From: Acidobacteriota bacterium
GTDB lineage: Bacteria; Acidobacteriota; Holophagae; Acanthopleuribacterales; Acanthopleuribacteraceae
Assembly (NCBI GenBank): GCA_020439745.1
Contig: JAGQSC010000003.1
Coordinates: forward strand, 124,001-188,000
Reading direction: 5' to 3'
DNA length: 64,000 nt
The notes beneath the pieces are model-generated. The model had not been told where the DNA came from. It saw only the letters and a program-made list of their open reading frames with translations, and did no database searches. The position numbers were made by a program, and so were the translations under genes. The stretch's first letter is position 1. Each line of letters starts with the position of its first letter. Shown piece after piece: positions 13,701 through 23,309 of the stretch.

Positions 13701-14101
13701 ACCTGCGGTTCCTCAAACATCGAGGCGACTTCACGTATTACACAGCCTTCACCCTGGAGTTACCCCCACAAACGCACTACACGGCACTTGCGGCCATGGA
13801 CGTGAACGGCGACGGTAGGCAGGACATCCTCGCCCTCGGAACCACTGAAACAGCCACCAGTCAGTACCTCGATATTTGGGAAAGTCGCTACACGGACCCC
13901 TTGGAAGAAATTCCGTTTGCCAGACTGCAACGCCTTGAGTGGCGTCATGCTGCTGGATCGTTTGATTTGGTCGACTTTGATTACGATGGTTTTCAAGATC
14001 TTCAATTTTGGGTAGATTATCATTTCCTGTGGTATCGAGCCCGCACCAGTTACTTTCCGTATTACGGTGTCAATCCATACCCCTGGCCCACCTCTAATTG
14101 A
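10709..14101 (+). CDS. Large secreted FG-GAP/VCBS repeat protein
   Basis: A secreted protein of about 1130 residues. The signal peptide is MRWMYLIWFSWAGLSG. The first 410 residues contain about three related beta-sandwich repeats, each starting near a P-H element and WSGLAL(V/L)N (about residues 108, 208 and 314). From about residue 440 there are ten D-x-[DN]-x-D-G calcium loops of FG-GAP type, for example DLDGDGDDELAIL, DVNGDGLLDLVAP and DMDGDGDLDLVFI. These predict a calcium-binding beta-propeller or array. ATG 10709 follows CCGGAGGATTT and gives a clean signal peptide; ATG 10685 is a possible alternative. The role is probably adhesion or surface binding, with no enzyme motif seen. The gene ends next to speA. 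Confidence 0.85.
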   Translation: MRWMYLIWFSWAGLSGETFLLGPGSNVRIVNGQPFDQTVLVRSLDQSGATVAQTSYSVPSGSVAQITLEAPPVALQIIAQGEVAAASIVNHQGMLDVRQNQAAHNLPLLIPHIAENLSFWDTHTEILSAAGLSDVVIKSPQRITVTDISSNLQSVSIDLESLFSETPTPGSGWGVMRARDAELVSLLAFQTADGKTGTSLPLPLQRSNLLILPHVPSDRATWWSGLALVNSNQTSANVRATVYAQGQVVTTRSLQIQPQSKQVGLIDDLLTPAIPLQSDWILFESNVPLAGFELFGTRNGETLTGLALGYKFHKHVAFSHTAPSGWWSGLALLNPGPAAIQIRVRANRDSGPMIDQTVIDLGPNEKKTILPEQVFGLSRGDAWLELESDYGFISFQLYGDQAQELLATFTPSSLRAQTIDLATPVPSVDMAENLSAATSDVKDLDGDGDDELAILTNETLSVVDWQPGPTLTSSPHTDFDYVNETSVPPNLFLEDLDGDGLSEVMVLTREMTLATLDAEHHPTRLQPARPEVADDPVIRDFADVNNDGMLDILTHRRLFKSQLGLTNFYFWNTFPYMFANTGRGSLFLDLNQDPNIDILTVLFDSVFAVLTNKLDVDPDPIYTPQQFQDIIAIYRGDFNGDQKEDIMSLLAETHESATATAMDISTYREDGADTIAQFPLLIEWGLNELVPVNRNNRQLFGQEIDNFTRYWDVDLDQGLQVAESRAWRGHDADVNGDGLLDLVAPSGVLLGEPNNHWDQPALPILLRRTTSDVITAFQDDYDDDAQMEVLTMRRTGSSSFLSVDLWEYQTDGRSWEPQHLLEANVVGTSLIDLSDMDGDGDLDLVFIGFGIRYFPWEESGFSANPIFLHTPDRVAVGPARFSEINGNHTKDLIAENPDGSNRVRIIYDVYGENPVTEDLSIYVPLAQLELVDADRDGDLDIKVDSPSRGRFILQRAGEQWQRRDFNFNMDHYELVDFSGDGILDTLAYVTSPDKNTQYLRFLKHRGDFTYYTAFTLELPPQTHYTALAAMDVNGDGRQDILALGTTETATSQYLDIWESRYTDPLEEIPFARLQRLEWRHAAGSFDLVDFDYDGFQDLQFWVDYHFLWYRARTSYFPYYGVNPYPWPTSN

Positions 14102-14112
14102 AGGAAACCGGA

Positions 14113-16011
14113 ATGACCGATTGGGATCGAGAAGAAGCCACCTCGCATTACAAAATTGAAGAGTGGGGATTGGGTTACTTCACCGTTAATGAGGCGGGGA
14201 ATTTGTGTGTTAGCCCTTCCAAAGACGCACCCTACAAGGTTGACCTGAAACTGCTGGTCGACGAACTACGGGCGCGAAAGGTACAACCGCCCATCCTCAT
14301 TCGCGTGTTGGACATACTCAAAGACCGCATCAATGAAATTGCCAATTGCTTCAAGAAAGCCATCGACGACTATGAGTATTCAGGCACGTACTATCCGCTT
14401 TATCCCATCAAAGTGAATCAGCAGCGTCATGTTGTGGAGGCCATGCTTGAATACGGACGACCCCACGGGTTGGGTCTGGAAGCAGGGTCTAAAGCAGAAC
14501 TCCTTGCTGTGCTGGCACTTACAGAGGATCCCTCCATTCCCATTGTATGTAACGGATACAAGGATAACGAATTCGTCGAGTTGGTCGGTATGGCGCATAA
14601 GATGGGCAAATTTATTTTCCCAGTCATTGAAAAATACTCTGAACTCGAATCGTTCATCCGCTATTACAAAGAAACAGGTACCATGCCCAACCTCGGTATT
14701 CGGATCAAACTCAACACCAGAGGGTCTGGACAGTGGGCCAAAACGGGTGGGGACGATTCGAAGTTTGGCCTGCGCATTCCAGAAGTTGTGGATGCAATCG
14801 AAAGACTAAAGCAAGAAAATCTATTGAGCCATCTCAAGTTACTTCACTTTCATATCGGCAGTCAGGTCACGCAAATCACGGTCATCAAACAAGCTATTAA
14901 CGAAGCGGGCCGGGTGTTTGTGGAGATGTCAAAGATGGGTGCCGAACTTGCTTACCTCGATGTGGGCGGTGGACTTGGTGTGGATTATGATGGCTCAACG
15001 CGAGATACCTTCTCCACGATCAATTACACCATCCAGGAATATGCGAATGACGTCGTTTATCGCGTTCAACAACTGTGCCTGGAAAACAAGATCCCTTGCC
15101 CAACAATATTCTCCGAATCAGGGCGATATCTAACCGCACACTATTCGATGTTGATCACTAATATCGCGACAACCGGGGTCGTATACGATCCATCGCGCGA
15201 GGACACACCCGTATCCAGCAGTGCCAGCTCTTTGAACGAACTTCAGGAATTGGTGAACTCCATCAACGAATCCAACTATCTGGAGTGTTATCACGATGCC
15301 CTCCAATACCGAACGGACCTGATGAACCTGTTCCATTTGGGGTACCTCAGCCTCACGGAGCGTGCTGCCATGGAGTCCACGTTTAACCGTTTGATGGACA
15401 ACGTCATTCATTACTCCCATCGCGCCGATCAAGAGCCCGTGGAACTGATGGACCTGGACCGTGGTCCGATTGACACCTATTTTGCGAATTTCTCGTTGTT
15501 CCAATCGTTGCCGGACGCATGGGCCATCAACCAAGTCTTTCCCATCGTGCCCATTCACAGATTGAACGAGCGACCCGAACGACGGGCAGTGCTTGTGGAT
15601 TTGACCTGTGACTCGGACGGTATCATTCGAGAATACATTGGCGACGATGACGAAAATCCGTTCGTGAAGCTCCATGCCGTCAATCCGAACGAGCCCTACT
15701 ACGTAGGCATCTTCATGATCGGCGCCTACCAAGAGACACTTGGCGAGCTACACAATTTGTTTGGCGACACCCATGCCATTCAAATTGACATACAAGGTGA
15801 AAACCAGTACCGCATTGCCAGCTTCATCAAGGGTGACACGGTCAATGACGTCTTGGGATATGTTTCATACAGCCATAAAGACCTTATTCACCGTATGCGA
15901 CATCAAATTGAGAAGGCCGTAGAAAGCCGCATGCTCACCTTGGATGAGTCAGCCCTTCTGATGGATCAATATGAACAAGGGATGTACGGTTACACCTACT
16001 TCGAAGATTGA
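14113..16011 (+). CDS. speA: Biosynthetic arginine decarboxylase SpeA
   Basis: A 632-residue PLP enzyme that converts arginine to agmatine, the first step of the arginine route to putrescine. The PLP lysine lies in YPIKVNQQRHVVEA, the glycine loop in DVGGGLGVDYDG, and the catalytic cysteine in LTCDSDGI. The SESGRYLTAHYSML segment is also diagnostic. The length matches bacterial SpeA. The ATG at 14113 has AAGGAAACC upstream; a TTG at 14098 overlapping the previous stop is the alternative. Neither speB nor aguA is in the window, so the fate of agmatine cannot be read here. The 3' end overlaps the convergent kinase gene by 16 bases. Confidence 0.96.
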   Translation: MTDWDREEATSHYKIEEWGLGYFTVNEAGNLCVSPSKDAPYKVDLKLLVDELRARKVQPPILIRVLDILKDRINEIANCFKKAIDDYEYSGTYYPLYPIKVNQQRHVVEAMLEYGRPHGLGLEAGSKAELLAVLALTEDPSIPIVCNGYKDNEFVELVGMAHKMGKFIFPVIEKYSELESFIRYYKETGTMPNLGIRIKLNTRGSGQWAKTGGDDSKFGLRIPEVVDAIERLKQENLLSHLKLLHFHIGSQVTQITVIKQAINEAGRVFVEMSKMGAELAYLDVGGGLGVDYDGSTRDTFSTINYTIQEYANDVVYRVQQLCLENKIPCPTIFSESGRYLTAHYSMLITNIATTGVVYDPSREDTPVSSSASSLNELQELVNSINESNYLECYHDALQYRTDLMNLFHLGYLSLTERAAMESTFNRLMDNVIHYSHRADQEPVELMDLDRGPIDTYFANFSLFQSLPDAWAINQVFPIVPIHRLNERPERRAVLVDLTCDSDGIIREYIGDDDENPFVKLHAVNPNEPYYVGIFMIGAYQETLGELHNLFGDTHAIQIDIQGENQYRIASFIKGDTVNDVLGYVSYSHKDLIHRMRHQIEKAVESRMLTLDESALLMDQYEQGMYGYTYFED

Positions 16012-18734
16012 TGTTCCAGCAACCAAGCTTCGAGACGCGGTAATCGCTGCATGTCGATATATACCGACTTAACATGAGCTATCGCGGCGTCCAAAATGCC
16101 ACCTGGTCCGATGTGCTCGGCGATCCATTCCAGATAGGCCTCATAGTGTTCGCATGCCCGGTCATAAGAGCCGCGGCCCTTCAACGCATCCGCGAGATCA
16201 GAATGAATGTAGCTCCGAGGAATATTCAATTGTTCGCCGAATTTGTCATGTAAAGACAGAGACTGCTCGAATCGATCGATCGCTTTATCCCACTGCTTCA
16301 AATAGGAAAACACCCTACCTGTGAGCATGGCTGAACCGCATAGGTAGAATTCGTACTCGCTTCGTGAACTGTGAATTTGGTATACACGATCAGCCAATTC
16401 CCTAGCCTCTTCCGCTTCACCCCGGCGAAGGAGACTAAACGCGAGGTTCATTTTGAAATTGACTAGCATGAGGTTGTCTGGTGGCAGAATTTGATCGCCC
16501 ACAGCAATCAATCGACGATAGGTCTGAAGCGCCGCATCTTGTTCATCCAGTTGTGAATGAGCAATAGCCAAATCGTTTAATGCAAAAAGCATCGAAACAT
16601 GATCATCACCGAGCGATCCTGAATAGATATTGACAGCCTGTTCGAGGAGGGTTTTCGCCGCCTGCGGTCGCTGCGCCATGGTGTCTATTTTCGCCGCGGT
16701 CACCAGGTAGTCAGCATAAAGAGGATGTTCGTCTCCAAATAGAGCGGATAAAACAGGTTCGCTTTGCGATGCCAGCGCCTCCGCTTCGTCCACTTTCCCC
16801 AACACCGCCTTGATCAAGCCCAATGAGAGTTTGTCCATGACCGTTAGAATGTGGTCATGTCCGAAATCGCGAACGGAAATTTCGACCAATTCTGTCATGG
16901 CGGTCTCCGCCGAAGCCAACTCACCCCTTTCAACTTGGGCATTGATTTCCGATCGCCGTAACACATGTCGCCTGGTTTCTATTGTGGGACCCGTTTTCCC
17001 CTCCAACAGCTTTTGGGCAGCCTTAATCGCATCCACCATTCGGTCCGTATCAAAAACCGCCATGTAGTGCGTCATCAATTCAATATACAACTCGGATTTG
17101 AGCTTGAATTCGCTGTCGGGCATCAGTTGGATTGCTTCCCTTAAGCGCGACTCTGAGCGGGCATAATCACCTTCTGCACGGGCAGTAACGCCCTCAATCC
17201 CCTTCAATTGTGCGCGAATGATATCTGTCATCAGATGGTGTCTCTCCGCAACCTCTGCGACGCGTTGTGCCGACAACTTGGACTCCTCCAAATTGCTCTG
17301 AGCCAAGTTCAGTCGAGCCAGAAGGATGTTCAGTTCGATTTCAGCCTCTGGATGGAGACCCTTGGGTTCAGATGCCGAACGCGACGCTTCGCGCAACAGT
17401 TGTTTCACGGTGACCGCGCGACTGTTGGGATTCAGCGGGTCCACACCGTTGAATATGTTGGACAGGAATTGTGTCACCTGTTCGGAACGCTCACGTTCGG
17501 CCAGAATCACCGCATTTCGCGCCCGCATCTCAAGACCAAACTGAAGAGATCCCACAGCCAACATCAAGAGCAGGATCGCGATCAAAGACGCACTGATCAC
17601 CGCTAATCGGTGTCTGCGGATGTACTTTCGCACCCGGTACCAGGTGCTGTCGCTTCGCGCCTTCACAGGAAAGCCATCCAAAAAACACTGAATATCGTCT
17701 CGCATGTCTGCCACCGAGCCGTAGCGCAATTTCGGTTCCTTGCGGAGCGCCGTATTGACAACAGCATCCAAATCACCGCGCAGTTGACTTGACTGCTTGC
17801 CACCAGTCACTTCACTAGGCCTTCTAGGAGACTCATGCAAAATCATCTGGTCTATTTCGGCCAGCGATTTCGACGAGAAATCGAAGGCCTTGACTCCGGT
17901 TAGGACCTCGTAAAGCAGCAAGCCCAACCCATAGATGTCTGTGGCCGTGGAAACAGGTTCGCAGGCGTATTGTTCCGGACTCGCATATTGGGGCGTCATC
18001 ATGGCAACCCCTTCTCTCGTTTCAATGGCTGAGACCAATTCGAAGTTGGGAGCTGCTCGATCGAGGATCTTGGCAATACCAAAGTCGAGCAGTTTCAACA
18101 CCCCCTCATGGGTGACCAACACATTGCCTGGCTTCAAGTCGCGATGCACAATCAAATGTTGGTGCGCAAAAGAAACCGCATCGCACAACTGTAGAAAAAG
18201 GATGAGCCGCTCTCGCGTATTCAACTGGTGACCTTCCACAAAGTCAGTCAACGAATCGCCTTCCACATATTCCATCACCAGGAATGGCGCACCCTCTGTA
18301 GTCACGCCACCATCCACCAATCGAGCAATATTGGGATGACTCAGTCTGGCTAGAATCTGGCGTTCCATTCGGAAACGATGGACCATATCTTCAGAGGCCA
18401 GTCCAATGCGAATCAGCTTAATGGCAACCCGCTGTTGAAACTGGCCATCGGCACGTTCGGCTTCGTAGACCACACCCATACCGCCTTGACCCAAGACTCG
18501 AATCAAGCGGTAGGGACCCAGTTGGGATTCACCCACAGCCGTTCCTTCACCAAAAGGCAAGTTGCCGGTGATTAACTGGCTCTTTTTTTCCGCATCTACG
18601 AGTTCGGCCAGATCCCGCGCCAAATCTGCATCGGCTTCGCGAATTTGTTGGATCAGGGCTTCCCGCGCCGGTTCCGGCTCATCCATGATGCGATCAAAAT
18701 GCGCCTTCAATTGTTGCCAATAGTCGCGATCCAT
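15996..18734 (-). CDS. Membrane Ser/Thr protein kinase with periplasmic/extracytoplasmic TPR repeats
   Basis: A 912-residue PknB-type kinase. The P-loop is GQGGMGVVYEAE (from about residue 82), with Lys106 in VAIK, Glu124, HRDLKPGN (catalytic Asp199) and DFG 217-219. The activation segment ends TPQYASPEQY, so the kinase looks active. A transmembrane helix (AVISASLIAILLLMLAVGSL, about 385-405) separates it from a roughly 480-residue helical region with many TPR-like units. This architecture is common in Acidobacteriota and related phyla. A short N-terminal helical segment precedes the kinase domain, as is usual in this group. GGGGTG before the ATG supports the start. The substrate is unknown. 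Confidence 0.93.
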   Translation of the reverse strand: MDRDYWQQLKAHFDRIMDEPEPAREALIQQIREADADLARDLAELVDAEKKSQLITGNLPFGEGTAVGESQLGPYRLIRVLGQGGMGVVYEAERADGQFQQRVAIKLIRIGLASEDMVHRFRMERQILARLSHPNIARLVDGGVTTEGAPFLVMEYVEGDSLTDFVEGHQLNTRERLILFLQLCDAVSFAHQHLIVHRDLKPGNVLVTHEGVLKLLDFGIAKILDRAAPNFELVSAIETREGVAMMTPQYASPEQYACEPVSTATDIYGLGLLLYEVLTGVKAFDFSSKSLAEIDQMILHESPRRPSEVTGGKQSSQLRGDLDAVVNTALRKEPKLRYGSVADMRDDIQCFLDGFPVKARSDSTWYRVRKYIRRHRLAVISASLIAILLLMLAVGSLQFGLEMRARNAVILAERERSEQVTQFLSNIFNGVDPLNPNSRAVTVKQLLREASRSASEPKGLHPEAEIELNILLARLNLAQSNLEESKLSAQRVAEVAERHHLMTDIIRAQLKGIEGVTARAEGDYARSESRLREAIQLMPDSEFKLKSELYIELMTHYMAVFDTDRMVDAIKAAQKLLEGKTGPTIETRRHVLRRSEINAQVERGELASAETAMTELVEISVRDFGHDHILTVMDKLSLGLIKAVLGKVDEAEALASQSEPVLSALFGDEHPLYADYLVTAAKIDTMAQRPQAAKTLLEQAVNIYSGSLGDDHVSMLFALNDLAIAHSQLDEQDAALQTYRRLIAVGDQILPPDNLMLVNFKMNLAFSLLRRGEAEEARELADRVYQIHSSRSEYEFYLCGSAMLTGRVFSYLKQWDKAIDRFEQSLSLHDKFGEQLNIPRSYIHSDLADALKGRGSYDRACEHYEAYLEWIAEHIGPGGILDAAIAHVKSVYIDMQRLPRLEAWLLEHQSSK

Positions 18735-18778: not shown

Positions 18779-19438
18779 TTAGAAGATCGTCATGATCTCC
18801 TGCAACGATTTTCTATGAATGTCGGGAACACATGCGTCCTCGGCGGGATAACCGACAGGCATCAGCAGGATCGGCACCTCGTTCTTCGGCCGATCGAGAA
18901 TCTCGTTCAAGAAAGCCATCGGATTAGGTGTGTGCGTGAGCGTGGCCAATCCCGCGTTGTGCAGTGCGGCAATCAACATGCCTGAAGCGATACCCACCGA
19001 TTCATTGACGTAGTAATTCTTCTTTCGATCACCGTCAACCAGGCGGTAGTTTTCCTTAAACACGACGATCAAGGCTGGCGCAATGTCCAAATACGCTTTG
19101 ACATGATCGGTCCCGAATATTTCCAGATCTTCCAGCCAGTCGTCTGGAAAGCGCCCTGAATAGTTGATTCGCTCTTCATGTTCCGCAGCTTCGCGAATCT
19201 GATGTTTGATCACCGCGTCCTTGACCACACAAAAGTGCCAAGGCTGCTTGTGTGCCCCCGAAGGTGCCGTTCCAGCCGTCAGGATTGCGCGTTCAAGGAC
19301 ACCTTCGGGAATGGGGTCCGGCGCAAATTGACGAACTGTACGTCGTCGGTTCATCAACTCATAAAAGGTGTCAGCTCGTTGTTGCATCGCTGCAGGTGCG
19401 AGGCGCTCAAGCGCATAGGGAATCATCGTCTGTTTCAT
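18779..19438 (-). CDS. Iodotyrosine deiodinase-like nitroreductase-family flavoprotein
   Basis: A 219-residue FMN protein of the nitroreductase fold. It resembles iodotyrosine deiodinase (IYD) more than ordinary nitroreductases. The flavin-binding start is RRRTVRQFAPDPIP, and TAPSGAHKQPWHF is the second flavin motif. The lid carries Glu89, Tyr93 and Lys114. Their spacing (4 and 21) equals that of human IYD Glu157, Tyr161 and Lys182, which bind the halotyrosine zwitterion. The end, MPVGYPAEDACVPDIHRKSL, also tracks IYD. The start at ATG 19438 follows AAGGAG. It may dehalogenate halotyrosines, an inference from family. Its neighbours (a kinase and a zinc-ribbon protein) do not clarify the role. 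Confidence 0.88.
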   Translation of the reverse strand: MKQTMIPYALERLAPAAMQQRADTFYELMNRRRTVRQFAPDPIPEGVLERAILTAGTAPSGAHKQPWHFCVVKDAVIKHQIREAAEHEERINYSGRFPDDWLEDLEIFGTDHVKAYLDIAPALIVVFKENYRLVDGDRKKNYYVNESVGIASGMLIAALHNAGLATLTHTPNPMAFLNEILDRPKNEVPILLMPVGYPAEDACVPDIHRKSLQEIMTIF

Positions 19439-19475
19439 AGTCAAACTCCTTGCTTCCTGCAGACCGCGATTGTAA

Positions 19476-19517
19476 CAAAAAATGGGCTCCGCTCGCAGAT
19501 GCCTTTGAGGGAGCCCT
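19476..19517 (-). terminator. Rho-independent terminator of the zinc-ribbon gene
   Basis: Read on the reverse strand, GGGCTCC (19517-19511) pairs with GGAGCCC (19490-19484) across a 20-base loop and is followed by A and six T residues. It lies about 150 bases downstream of the zinc-ribbon gene and before the deiodinase-like gene. The long loop makes it a moderate rather than strong candidate. Confidence 0.5.
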
Positions 19518-19522
19518 AACGT

Positions 19523-19568
19523 TTTGACCAACATGGTTTCCCTGTTGGAGGAGGAGTTTGGTCAAAAT
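19523..19568. repeat. Nested inverted repeat
   Basis: A perfect 10-base inverted repeat, TTTTGACCAA (19523-19532) and TTGGTCAAAA (19559-19568), encloses a second one, CCAACA (19529-19534) with TGTTGG (19544-19549). The two share CCAA, so they cannot form at the same time. The element lies between two reverse-strand genes, close to the terminator. Confidence 0.55.
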
Positions 19569-19669
19569 CGGGGATTTGAGCAACGCGAGTAATCGGGACG
19601 TTTACCCGCGCACTCTTACTAACAATGTAATTCCTTTTTTTATTTCCGACAAATGAGCCAGCGGTCGCA

Positions 19670-20188
19670 TCAAAAGGCGATAAACGGCAACGCCCGCAAA
19701 ACACGCTCGCCCAACAGCTTAAGAGAAAGCAAAGCATGACCTGCTGCTTCGCCTAAGGGCAACTCGTCGGAAAAAACCGAAACGGCCTCCTTGGCCGCTA
19801 GCGCCACATACGACGCCACGTCGTCAGCAGCATGCTCCAAGTGGGATACCAGTTTCTCTTCTTCACCGGTATGCACCCAAAGCGAATGCGTCACAGGATC
19901 ACCATACACCATGATGTGCATGACTTCGGTGTCCCTAATCTCAATCATAGGCCTGGGACCATCGGGACTCATCAGTGGCGATTCAGACACTGAAAAACGT
20001 TCATGATCGTTCCACAACCGCAATTCCAAGCCGCCGATACCCGAAACGGCAGCGGCAATTTTTTCGAGTTCTCCCTTGGGATACAAAGTACCGTGACCTT
20101 CAGGGCACACCCACACGTGGAAAAGCTTGTAGGTCTTCGCATCAAGCGTCGCTTCACATTCTGGGCAGATCTTCAAAGCCTCATCCAT
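19670..20188 (-). CDS. Hypothetical protein with N-terminal zinc-ribbon
   Basis: A 172-residue protein. The N-terminus has a likely zinc site Cys8-x2-Cys11 with Cys28 and His32 (CPECEATL and VWVCPEGHGTL), resembling the TFIIB-type ribbons in small bacterial proteins. The middle (about residues 60-120) is beta-rich with no recognised motif. The C-terminal third is hydrophobic and alanine/leucine-rich and could be an amphipathic or membrane-associated helix. TAGGAGGC before the ATG is a strong ribosome-binding site. A terminator follows about 150 bases downstream, so it is likely a single-gene unit. No function can be assigned. Confidence 0.65.
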   Translation of the reverse strand: MDEALKICPECEATLDAKTYKLFHVWVCPEGHGTLYPKGELEKIAAAVSGIGGLELRLWNDHERFSVSESPLMSPDGPRPMIEIRDTEVMHIMVYGDPVTHSLWVHTGEEEKLVSHLEHAADDVASYVALAAKEAVSVFSDELPLGEAAGHALLSLKLLGERVLRALPFIAF

Positions 20189-20244: not shown

Positions 20245-20273
20245 TTGACCTGGCCATCTCAAACCCATACATT
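20245..20273 (+). promoter_or_regulatory. sigma70-type promoter placing asnB on a leaderless mRNA
   Basis: TTGACC (20245-20250, five of six) and TACATT (20268-20273, four of six) are spaced 17 bases. The expected transcription start is 20279-20281, which coincides with the asnB ATG at 20281. No convincing ribosome-binding site precedes that ATG, which fits a leaderless transcript. Confidence 0.45.
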
Positions 20274-20280
20274 GGCGGCT

Positions 20281-22158
20281 ATGTGTGGCATCGCGGGGAT
20301 CATTTCAGCGGAACCGATAGAAGGTGATCGGGTGTTGTCCATGCTCCGCGCCATTCCCTATCGTGGACCTGATAATCTTAGTATCAAACATTACAGCATA
20401 TCCACTCACCTCCACCTCACGATCGGTCAGGTACGACTGGCTATTCTTGACCCGACCCCAGATGCCAACCAGCCATTCGACATCCAATCAGGGCACAGCC
20501 TTACCTTTAACGGCGAGTTTTATAACTTTCGTGATGTCCGGCGTGAGCTCGAAGCGGGCGGCACGCAGTTCCACACGCAAAGCGACACGGAAGTCGCCAC
20601 TCACCTCCTAGCGGGTGGCGATATCCAGGCGCTCAACCAGTTGGAAGGTATGTTTGCAGGCGTGTTTGCCGATCCCATTCGGAGACAAATCACACTGTTT
20701 CGCGATCGAATGGGGAAAAAACCACTGTATATGTACCCCACAGAGAACATGGTGTTCTTTGCCTCGGAAGCCAAAGCGATTCTCGCAGCCATCGACCAAT
20801 ATCCCGAACTGGACCAGACCTCCATCGAAGCCTTTTTTCTTCTGTCCTATATTCCCGATGACCGATCGGCCTTTATCAACATGAATCAGTTGGCCCCGGG
20901 TCATGCGATGACCTGGCACTCCATGGAAATGCCATCCCCTGTTCGTTGGTATCACCCCAAACCACAGGAACCCACTCTTGAGGCATTGAAACCGTTGTTT
21001 TTGGACGCAGTAAAGAAACGCATGATCAGCGACGTGCCACTGGGCGCATTTCTGTCGGGAGGACTCGACTCGTCACTGGTCGTAGCTGCCATGGCGGAGC
21101 TTTCAGAACAACCGGTGCACACATTCTCGGTCCGTTTTCAGGGTCCCCAAGCTCTGGATGAATCTCCCTATGCGCGCCTCGTGGCGTCCCATTTTGGGAC
21201 TAGGCATGAGGAAATCACATTGGACGAGACCGAACTCACAAATCTGGTCCCTCTAGTTTTGAACCATTTCGACGAGCCATTTGGTGACTCGTCTGCAGTG
21301 CCCAGTTTCCTGGTGTCTCGAGAGGCTCGACGCCATTTCACCGTTGCATTGTCTGGTGATGGCGCAGACGAAGTGTTTGCCGGATACCGCAAGTACCTCG
21401 GAGAACACTACATCCACAAGCTGGGCCCCTACTTTCTCAGGAAGTGGGTTTGGCGGCCGTTGGCCAACTTACTACCTAGCGGACGAACCAGTGGCGTGCT
21501 GGAACGGGCACGTCGCATGCAACGGTTGCTTCGAGGCGACGCACCTACGCCCGCAGAACGCCATGTCAATTGGATGGACATGTCGCCCATTCCGTGTGAA
21601 CAGCTACTACAAGCCCCGTTCCAGTCGGGTCGCAAGCGTTGGCAATCGCAATTGGTCGCACGCATACCAAAATCCGCGACATTGAACGACCTCCTCCGAT
21701 TTGACCAATCTCTGGTCTTGGTTCACGACATGTTTGTCAAAGTCGACCGCATGAGCATGAAGGCCAGTCTTGAGGTTCGCAGCCCTTTTGTCGACCATCG
21801 CCTTGTCGAGTGGGCCAATTCACTGAAGCCCGATCAAAAGCTAAAAGGCACCATGCGAAAGCGCGTATTGGTCGAACAACTGGGTCACATGTTGCCACCC
21901 CAAATACTCCACCGTCCCAAGTCGGGTTTTGAAATGCCGATTGGCGCCTGGCTGAGGACATCCTTAAAATCCTGGGCCTATCATCAGTTGTTCGAGCAAG
22001 ATGACACCCAAGAATGGGTTTATCGAGACCATCTCAAACGAATCTGGCAGAGCCATCAATCGGGTCGCGGGGATTTCACCGAACCGCTTTGGTACCACCT
22101 CGTATTCGCGACCTGGTACCAACGCTATCAACGGCGGCTCTTGCACAAGGTGACCTAA
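20281..22158 (+). CDS. asnB: Asparagine synthase (glutamine-hydrolysing)
   Basis: A 625-residue AsnB that makes asparagine or amidates a related acceptor, using ATP and glutamine. The start is fixed by the amidotransferase Cys2 (MCGIAGII). The N-terminal glutaminase domain follows (YRGPDN, FNGEFYNF). The synthetase domain has the PP-loop FLSGGLDSSLVVAA, the LSGDGADEVFAGYRKY motif and the VKVDRMSMKASLEVRSPF motif. It overlaps the GT4 gene by one base (TAATG). In polysaccharide regions, AsnB-like proteins often amidate sugars instead of making free asparagine. The coupling to a glycosyltransferase makes that worth considering, but sequence alone does not decide. Confidence 0.93.
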   Translation: MCGIAGIISAEPIEGDRVLSMLRAIPYRGPDNLSIKHYSISTHLHLTIGQVRLAILDPTPDANQPFDIQSGHSLTFNGEFYNFRDVRRELEAGGTQFHTQSDTEVATHLLAGGDIQALNQLEGMFAGVFADPIRRQITLFRDRMGKKPLYMYPTENMVFFASEAKAILAAIDQYPELDQTSIEAFFLLSYIPDDRSAFINMNQLAPGHAMTWHSMEMPSPVRWYHPKPQEPTLEALKPLFLDAVKKRMISDVPLGAFLSGGLDSSLVVAAMAELSEQPVHTFSVRFQGPQALDESPYARLVASHFGTRHEEITLDETELTNLVPLVLNHFDEPFGDSSAVPSFLVSREARRHFTVALSGDGADEVFAGYRKYLGEHYIHKLGPYFLRKWVWRPLANLLPSGRTSGVLERARRMQRLLRGDAPTPAERHVNWMDMSPIPCEQLLQAPFQSGRKRWQSQLVARIPKSATLNDLLRFDQSLVLVHDMFVKVDRMSMKASLEVRSPFVDHRLVEWANSLKPDQKLKGTMRKRVLVEQLGHMLPPQILHRPKSGFEMPIGAWLRTSLKSWAYHQLFEQDDTQEWVYRDHLKRIWQSHQSGRGDFTEPLWYHLVFATWYQRYQRRLLHKVT

Positions 22159-23309
22159 TGGAGACACTTCGCGTTCTGCGCATTCAGTCCCGTATTTGTA
22201 TTGGAGGCCCTGCCCTGAACTCGATTTACCTCAGTGCCCATCTTGGAGAGCCGTTCCAAACCATATTGGTTGGAGGTCGATTGGAATCTGGTGAGTCGAC
22301 CCTTGAACCCCTAGCACATGATCTGGGCGTGCCCATCAAAATACTCGATGATATGGGCAGACGCGTGAGTTGGCTGGACGACTGGCGCGCATTCCGAACC
22401 TTAATAAAAATCATCCGTCTTTATCGACCGCACATCGTGCATACGCATACCGCCAAAGCTGGCGCGTTGGGGCGACTGGCCGCCTTCTTTTGTCGGGTAC
22501 CCATTCGCGTACACACATTTCACGGCCATGTGTTTGAAGGCTATTTTTCCCGTTGGGGAAATCTTGCCGTTCGATGGGCGGAACGAGGGTTGGCGCTCAT
22601 ATCCACAGCTATTGTTGCCATTTCACCGCGTCAACAAGACGATCTGATACGGCGGTTTCGAATCACATCGCATCGTAAGTGTCACGTGATCCGCCTGGGT
22701 TTTAAGCTGAAAGATCTTTCAAAGGGTCGACCAGGCGTTTTTCGCCAACAATTGGGCATCCCCGAAGCGGCGCGATTTGCGGCTATCATTGCTCGCCTGG
22801 TCCCTGTGAAGAATCACAGTCTTTTGCTGGAGTCTTTGTCAATCTGGCTCAAGCAATCCGACATCTCGCCCGATCAATTTCGTTTGGCTATTATCGGCGA
22901 TGGCGAACTCAGAGCAACACTGGAAGAGCAGTGTCGCGCACTCAATCTCGAGGCATGGGTAACTTTTACCGGTTGGCAAACAAATATGGCGGATATCTAT
23001 GCAGATATCGACCTGAATGTGTTGGTTTCTCGCAATGAGGGCACACCTGTCACCCTAATCGAAGGCCTGGCCGCAGGTGTGCCACTGATCACCACCGACG
23101 TAGGTGGCGTACGCGATATCGTGGAGCCCGACCAGGGCATTGTTATTGATCCTCAATCGAAACCTGAAACATTGGCTGAAGCACTGAAACAATGGTGGCT
23201 ATCACCCTCACCACGACTTTCACCCGAGGCTCAATTACGAATTCGCAATCAATTCAGTGTGGAACGGCTCGTAAACGACATGGAAGCGCTTTACCGTTCA
23301 CTGCTTTAA
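22158..23309 (+). CDS. GT4-family glycosyltransferase
   Basis: A 383-residue GT-B fold enzyme of family GT4. The N-terminal domain has the HTHTAKAGALGRLAAFF loop and a TFHGHVFEGYF segment. The C-terminal domain carries the nucleotide-sugar signature SRNEGTPVTLIEGLAAGVP, whose two Glu residues seven apart form the E-x7-E motif, followed by TTDVGGVRDIVE. It resembles exopolysaccharide glycosyltransferases. Its ATG overlaps the asnB stop, so the two are co-translated. The donor and acceptor sugars cannot be told. No signal peptide or transmembrane helix is seen. Confidence 0.9.
   Translation: METLRVLRIQSRICIGGPALNSIYLSAHLGEPFQTILVGGRLESGESTLEPLAHDLGVPIKILDDMGRRVSWLDDWRAFRTLIKIIRLYRPHIVHTHTAKAGALGRLAAFFCRVPIRVHTFHGHVFEGYFSRWGNLAVRWAERGLALISTAIVAISPRQQDDLIRRFRITSHRKCHVIRLGFKLKDLSKGRPGVFRQQLGIPEAARFAAIIARLVPVKNHSLLLESLSIWLKQSDISPDQFRLAIIGDGELRATLEEQCRALNLEAWVTFTGWQTNMADIYADIDLNVLVSRNEGTPVTLIEGLAAGVPLITTDVGGVRDIVEPDQGIVIDPQSKPETLAEALKQWWLSPSPRLSPEAQLRIRNQFSVERLVNDMEALYRSLL

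Follow-up and report, generated by a model that had tools for sequence, protein, structure and literature searches.

A bacterial homologue of iodotyrosine deiodinase encoded in an Acidobacteriota genome

The deiodinase-type gene and its neighbours

The window analysed here is a 64,000-nucleotide stretch of Acidobacteriota DNA (contig JAGQSC010000003.1, positions 124,001 to 188,000). On its minus strand, at 18779..19438, lies a gene for a 219-residue protein that sequence searches, alignment, a tree and a fold model all assign to the FMN reductive dehalogenases of the iodotyrosine deiodinase (IYD) type. The ATG at 19438 has a Shine-Dalgarno sequence, AAGGAG (19446..19451, minus strand), 7 bases in front of it. 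A longer reading from the ATG at 19534 is less likely, because its additional N-terminal segment is not conserved as protein in the sister species (L004) and because AAGGAG precedes the ATG at 19438. From the alignment, a possible extended -10 element for this gene can be placed at 19469..19477 on the same strand (TGTTACAAT; TGTTAGAAT in the sister species). The source genome encodes this one IYD and one other protein of the Nitroreductase family.

Downstream, a gene for a Ser/Thr kinase with C-terminal TPR repeats (15996-18734, minus strand) starts 44 bases past the IYD stop codon and is possibly co-transcribed with it; in the sister species no such kinase gene stands at this position. An arginine decarboxylase gene (14098-16011) adjoins the kinase gene. 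On the other side lie genes for a Zn-ribbon protein (19670-20188), an asparagine synthase (20245-22158, plus strand) and a glycosyltransferase (22014-23309, plus strand); the strong NCBIfam relatives of the last two include exosortase/PEP-CTERM-associated families, with scores under those families' cut-offs. Both the Zn-ribbon gene and the asparagine synthase gene stand in the same position in the sister species, but not in the other family members examined. When the ORFs around 80 IYD loci were clustered, no neighbour held a constant place beside IYD from phylum to phylum, and IYD behaves as a stand-alone gene. Given this, the context speaks neither for nor against an IYD function, and the sequence-only reading, which had called such an enzyme unexpected among these genes, drew more from the neighbourhood than it can tell.

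The same genome also encodes three flavin-halogenase-like proteins with the WxWxIP motif (L126, L127 and L129, on its contigs C60, C35 and C63), of which L126 most resembles the FADH2-dependent halogenases of the PltA type (E = 4.7e-56). It further encodes a vanadium-dependent haloperoxidase-like protein (L137, at L143:7669-8934 on the minus strand; 4cit, E = 3.4e-21) with KxxxxxxRP and SRxxxxxH motifs and with PSAH replacing PSGH. No gene of either kind adjoins IYD within the window, and no biosynthetic cluster is evident around them, as judged from the ORF list alone; we therefore claim no link between these genes, as a host-encoded source of halotyrosine, and IYD.

A small-RNA candidate upstream of the gene

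Directly upstream of IYD, folding and a two-species alignment point to an unannotated, 145-nt RNA on the minus strand (19474..19618), which is probably a genus-specific small RNA. In the gap that separates IYD from the Zn-ribbon gene, a block on the IYD strand is near-identical in the sister species, and 19474-19618 folds with z-scores of -4.75 and -5.26 in the two species, with 0 of 200 shuffles as good. Changes between the species keep the first hairpin paired, and the second hairpin (19522-19567) has a perfect 10-bp stem, is unique in the genome and carries the anti-Shine-Dalgarno sequence CUCCUCCUCC in its loop. The predicted intrinsic terminator (19478-19516, minus strand) has a stem that differs between the two species yet stays paired. 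Because pair counting for this RNA could draw on only two alignment rows, the accompanying shuffle control carries no information. Each species also has a promoter-like TTGTCG-17-TACATT ahead of the RNA, the spacer having diverged between them; this pair was not among the promoters called by the scan.

A covariance model built for the RNA gives convincing matches in both genomes of the genus and none outside it. We considered and rejected the alpha-r14/cuckoo family (RF02344), whose Rfam model gives a sub-threshold 12.3 bits against a gathering threshold of 58.8. By definition, that family has three hairpins and carries CCUCCUCCC in unpaired parts of every one (PMC10746234); here CUCCUCCUCC occurs in the second hairpin only. 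It is a long shot that the RNA also serves as a leader or attenuator controlling deiodinase expression, for instance with halotyrosine or some other metabolite as the signal, but were that so it would provide a regulatory clue to the role of bacterial IYDs.

Family membership, active site and proposed activity

In a phmmer search of the PDB, the window protein matches a bacterial IYD (5ko7, E = 3.3e-76) and the mouse and human enzymes (7.9e-60 and 1.1e-57) at levels far beyond chance as sequence matches go, and the matches under other names begin with the nitroreductase 4dn2 at 4.9e-12. Pairwise identities follow the same order: 56% to the IYD of Haliscomenobacter hydrossis, 49% to mouse and 48% to human IYD, and 27% to BluB, 25-27% to NfsB/NfsA and 20% to RutE among the controls. 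The other nitroreductase encoded in the source genome gives 22%, and one from a related genome 29%. In a tree of 29 IYD rows and 12 controls, the IYD rows, the window protein included, form one side of a branch with support of 97/96. An earlier tree of 110 rows, made from a cruder alignment, had placed the very long E. coli NfsA branch inside the IYD part; we consider that tree unreliable at this branch and therefore rebuilt it from a smaller set of rows, aligned more accurately, whereupon the misplacement disappeared. The AlphaFold model of the window protein (pLDDT 90.2) has the nitroreductase fold of the IYD type, and the leading matches in a fold search with this model are all IYDs, the best being the iodotyrosine-bound structure 5ko8 (E = 1.5e-25, TM 0.89). 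By its sequence, then, the protein belongs to the IYD subgroup of the nitroreductase superfamily.

These data also bear on two other members of the superfamily. The protein falls within Pfam Nitroreductase (PF00881), and BluB (TIGR02476) is its best NCBIfam match, but the 65.8 bits fall short of the cut-off of 150, whereas true BluB relatives from the same class score 272-285 bits and lie outside the IYD clade; an identity as a BluB-type flavin destructase, that is, a 5,6-dimethylbenzimidazole synthase, can thus be set aside. The same holds for an ordinary NAD(P)H nitroreductase of the NfsA/NfsB type with the IYD triad present by chance, which is excluded by the tree, contradicted by the low identity and hard to reconcile with the absence of the triad from all 15 control nitroreductases described below.

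The active-site residues were compared in a MAFFT alignment of 110 proteins, comprising 95 IYD-type rows (the window protein, 91 prokaryotic relatives and three IYDs from the PDB) and 15 controls (BluB, NfsA, NfsB, RutE, YdjA and other nitroreductases). Glu89 (codon 19172..19174, reckoned, like the others, on the minus strand from the start at 19438), Tyr93 (19160..19162) and Lys114 (19097..19099) align with human Glu157, Tyr161 and Lys182, which contact the amino and carboxyl groups of the halotyrosine, and the spacings of 4 and 21 are the same in both proteins. This triad is found in 95 of 95 IYD-type rows versus 0 of 15 other nitroreductases. Its conservation is not circular, since the 80 relatives from the genome collection were picked by peptide patterns of which the triad residues are no part. 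Also invariant in all 95 IYD rows are Arg32, Arg33 and Arg36, which align with the FMN-phosphate arginines of the human enzyme (R100, R101 and R104), Ala62 (human A130) and Thr170 (codon 18929..18931, minus strand), the equivalent of human Thr239, which we take from the established IYD literature to hydrogen-bond to flavin N5. Ser60 aligns with human Ser128, and the C-terminus, VPDIHRKSLQEIM, tracks human VPDLKRKPLDQIM. The sequence-only reading had proposed an IYD homologue with a full triad and an IYD-like C-terminus, and had named placement among NfsA/NfsB in a tree as the outcome that would speak against it; the tree gave no such placement, and on these points the reading is borne out.

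In characterised IYDs, the halotyrosine lies on the FMN with its zwitterion gripped by the triad and the flavin, a lid closes, and a threonine at flavin N5 favours the one-electron steps that expel the halide. All the residues that this mechanism requires are present in the window protein. By analogy, we infer that it is very probably a soluble, homodimeric FMN flavoprotein that reductively dehalogenates halotyrosine. Free 3-iodo-, bromo- or chlorotyrosine would stack on the flavin, and Glu89, Tyr93 and Lys114 would, together with FMN, hold its amino and carboxylate groups, a grip that would cause the lid helix to shut over the site. With Thr170 positioned at its N5, the reduced flavin would then drive out the halide in two one-electron steps to leave tyrosine. 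In the cell, the enzyme might serve in halotyrosine salvage or detoxification.

A different natural substrate is the alternative that survives best, although we judge it unlikely: the enzyme could have the IYD fold and act on another tyrosine-like molecule, such as nitrotyrosine, another modified tyrosine or a phenolic metabolite; deiodination would then be a side activity. What the triad touches is the zwitterion, not the halogen, and it would hold nitrotyrosine or another tyrosine derivative equally well, the H. hydrossis enzyme has also been crystallised with 2-iodophenol, and the neighbours at the 80 IYD loci hint at no halogen metabolism. On the other hand, the closest characterised relative, at 56% identity, is a deiodinase solved with I-Tyr, and the key IYD residues are all conserved, which favours halotyrosine dehalogenation.

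Distribution and comparison with known systems

In one genome collection, 84,980 species genomes were scanned and yielded at least 575 confirmed relatives. The best 80 of these, all with the triad, come from at least 14 phyla, among them Bacteroidota, Balneolota, Fidelibacterota, Acidobacteriota, Actinomycetota, Gemmatimonadota, Ignavibacteriota, Chloroflexota, Pseudomonadota, Planctomycetota, Verrucomicrobiota, Zixiibacteriota and Calditrichota, and include a single archaeal bin. Closer to the window, a full-length copy is found in 11 of 99 related genomes (1 of 1 in the genus and 4 of 5 elsewhere in the family). In view of these numbers the family is widespread and not uncommon in bacteria, contrary to the rarity supposed in the sequence-only reading, and by 2017 the PDB already contained structures of bacterial IYDs. 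That IYDs are known from mammals to bacteria is already stated in a 2026 review (PMC13078365), which cites a key survey of IYD in diverse phyla, Phatarphekar 2014. That IYDs with the triad stand alone in genomes of at least 14 phyla of prokaryotes suggests a task of general use, such as the salvage or repair of halotyrosine, and not a part in some specialised pathway. The window gene is one more well-supported member of a known bacterial family, an ordinary enzyme whose bacterial relatives have already been crystallised.

The FMN nitroreductase fold of the window protein is also that of BluB and of NfsA, NfsB and RutE, which have 20-27% identity to it, lack the triad and lie outside the IYD clade. 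A second type of IYD in the PDB, 6PZ0, which we take to be a Thermotoga neapolitana protein, is named as an iodotyrosine deiodinase and was solved with L-Tyr; at 192 residues it is shorter than the window protein and about 30% identical to it (E = 1.2e-20 by sequence and 4.8e-15 by fold). Human and mouse IYD/DEHAL1 (4TTB/4TTC and 3GB5/3GFD/3GH8) are 48-49% identical in the catalytic domain and share the triad and the C-terminal tail, but have an N-terminal extension that the window protein lacks. Bacterial and mammalian rows further differ at positions 146 (E versus I), 149 (G versus S), 169 (H versus T) and 173 (P versus N). The IYD of H. hydrossis (5KO7, 5KO8 and 5KRD) differs from the window protein in lineage and gene neighbourhood, and has been solved with I-Tyr and with 2-iodophenol; the two proteins share the triad and the flavin residues, with 56% identity over 218 residues.
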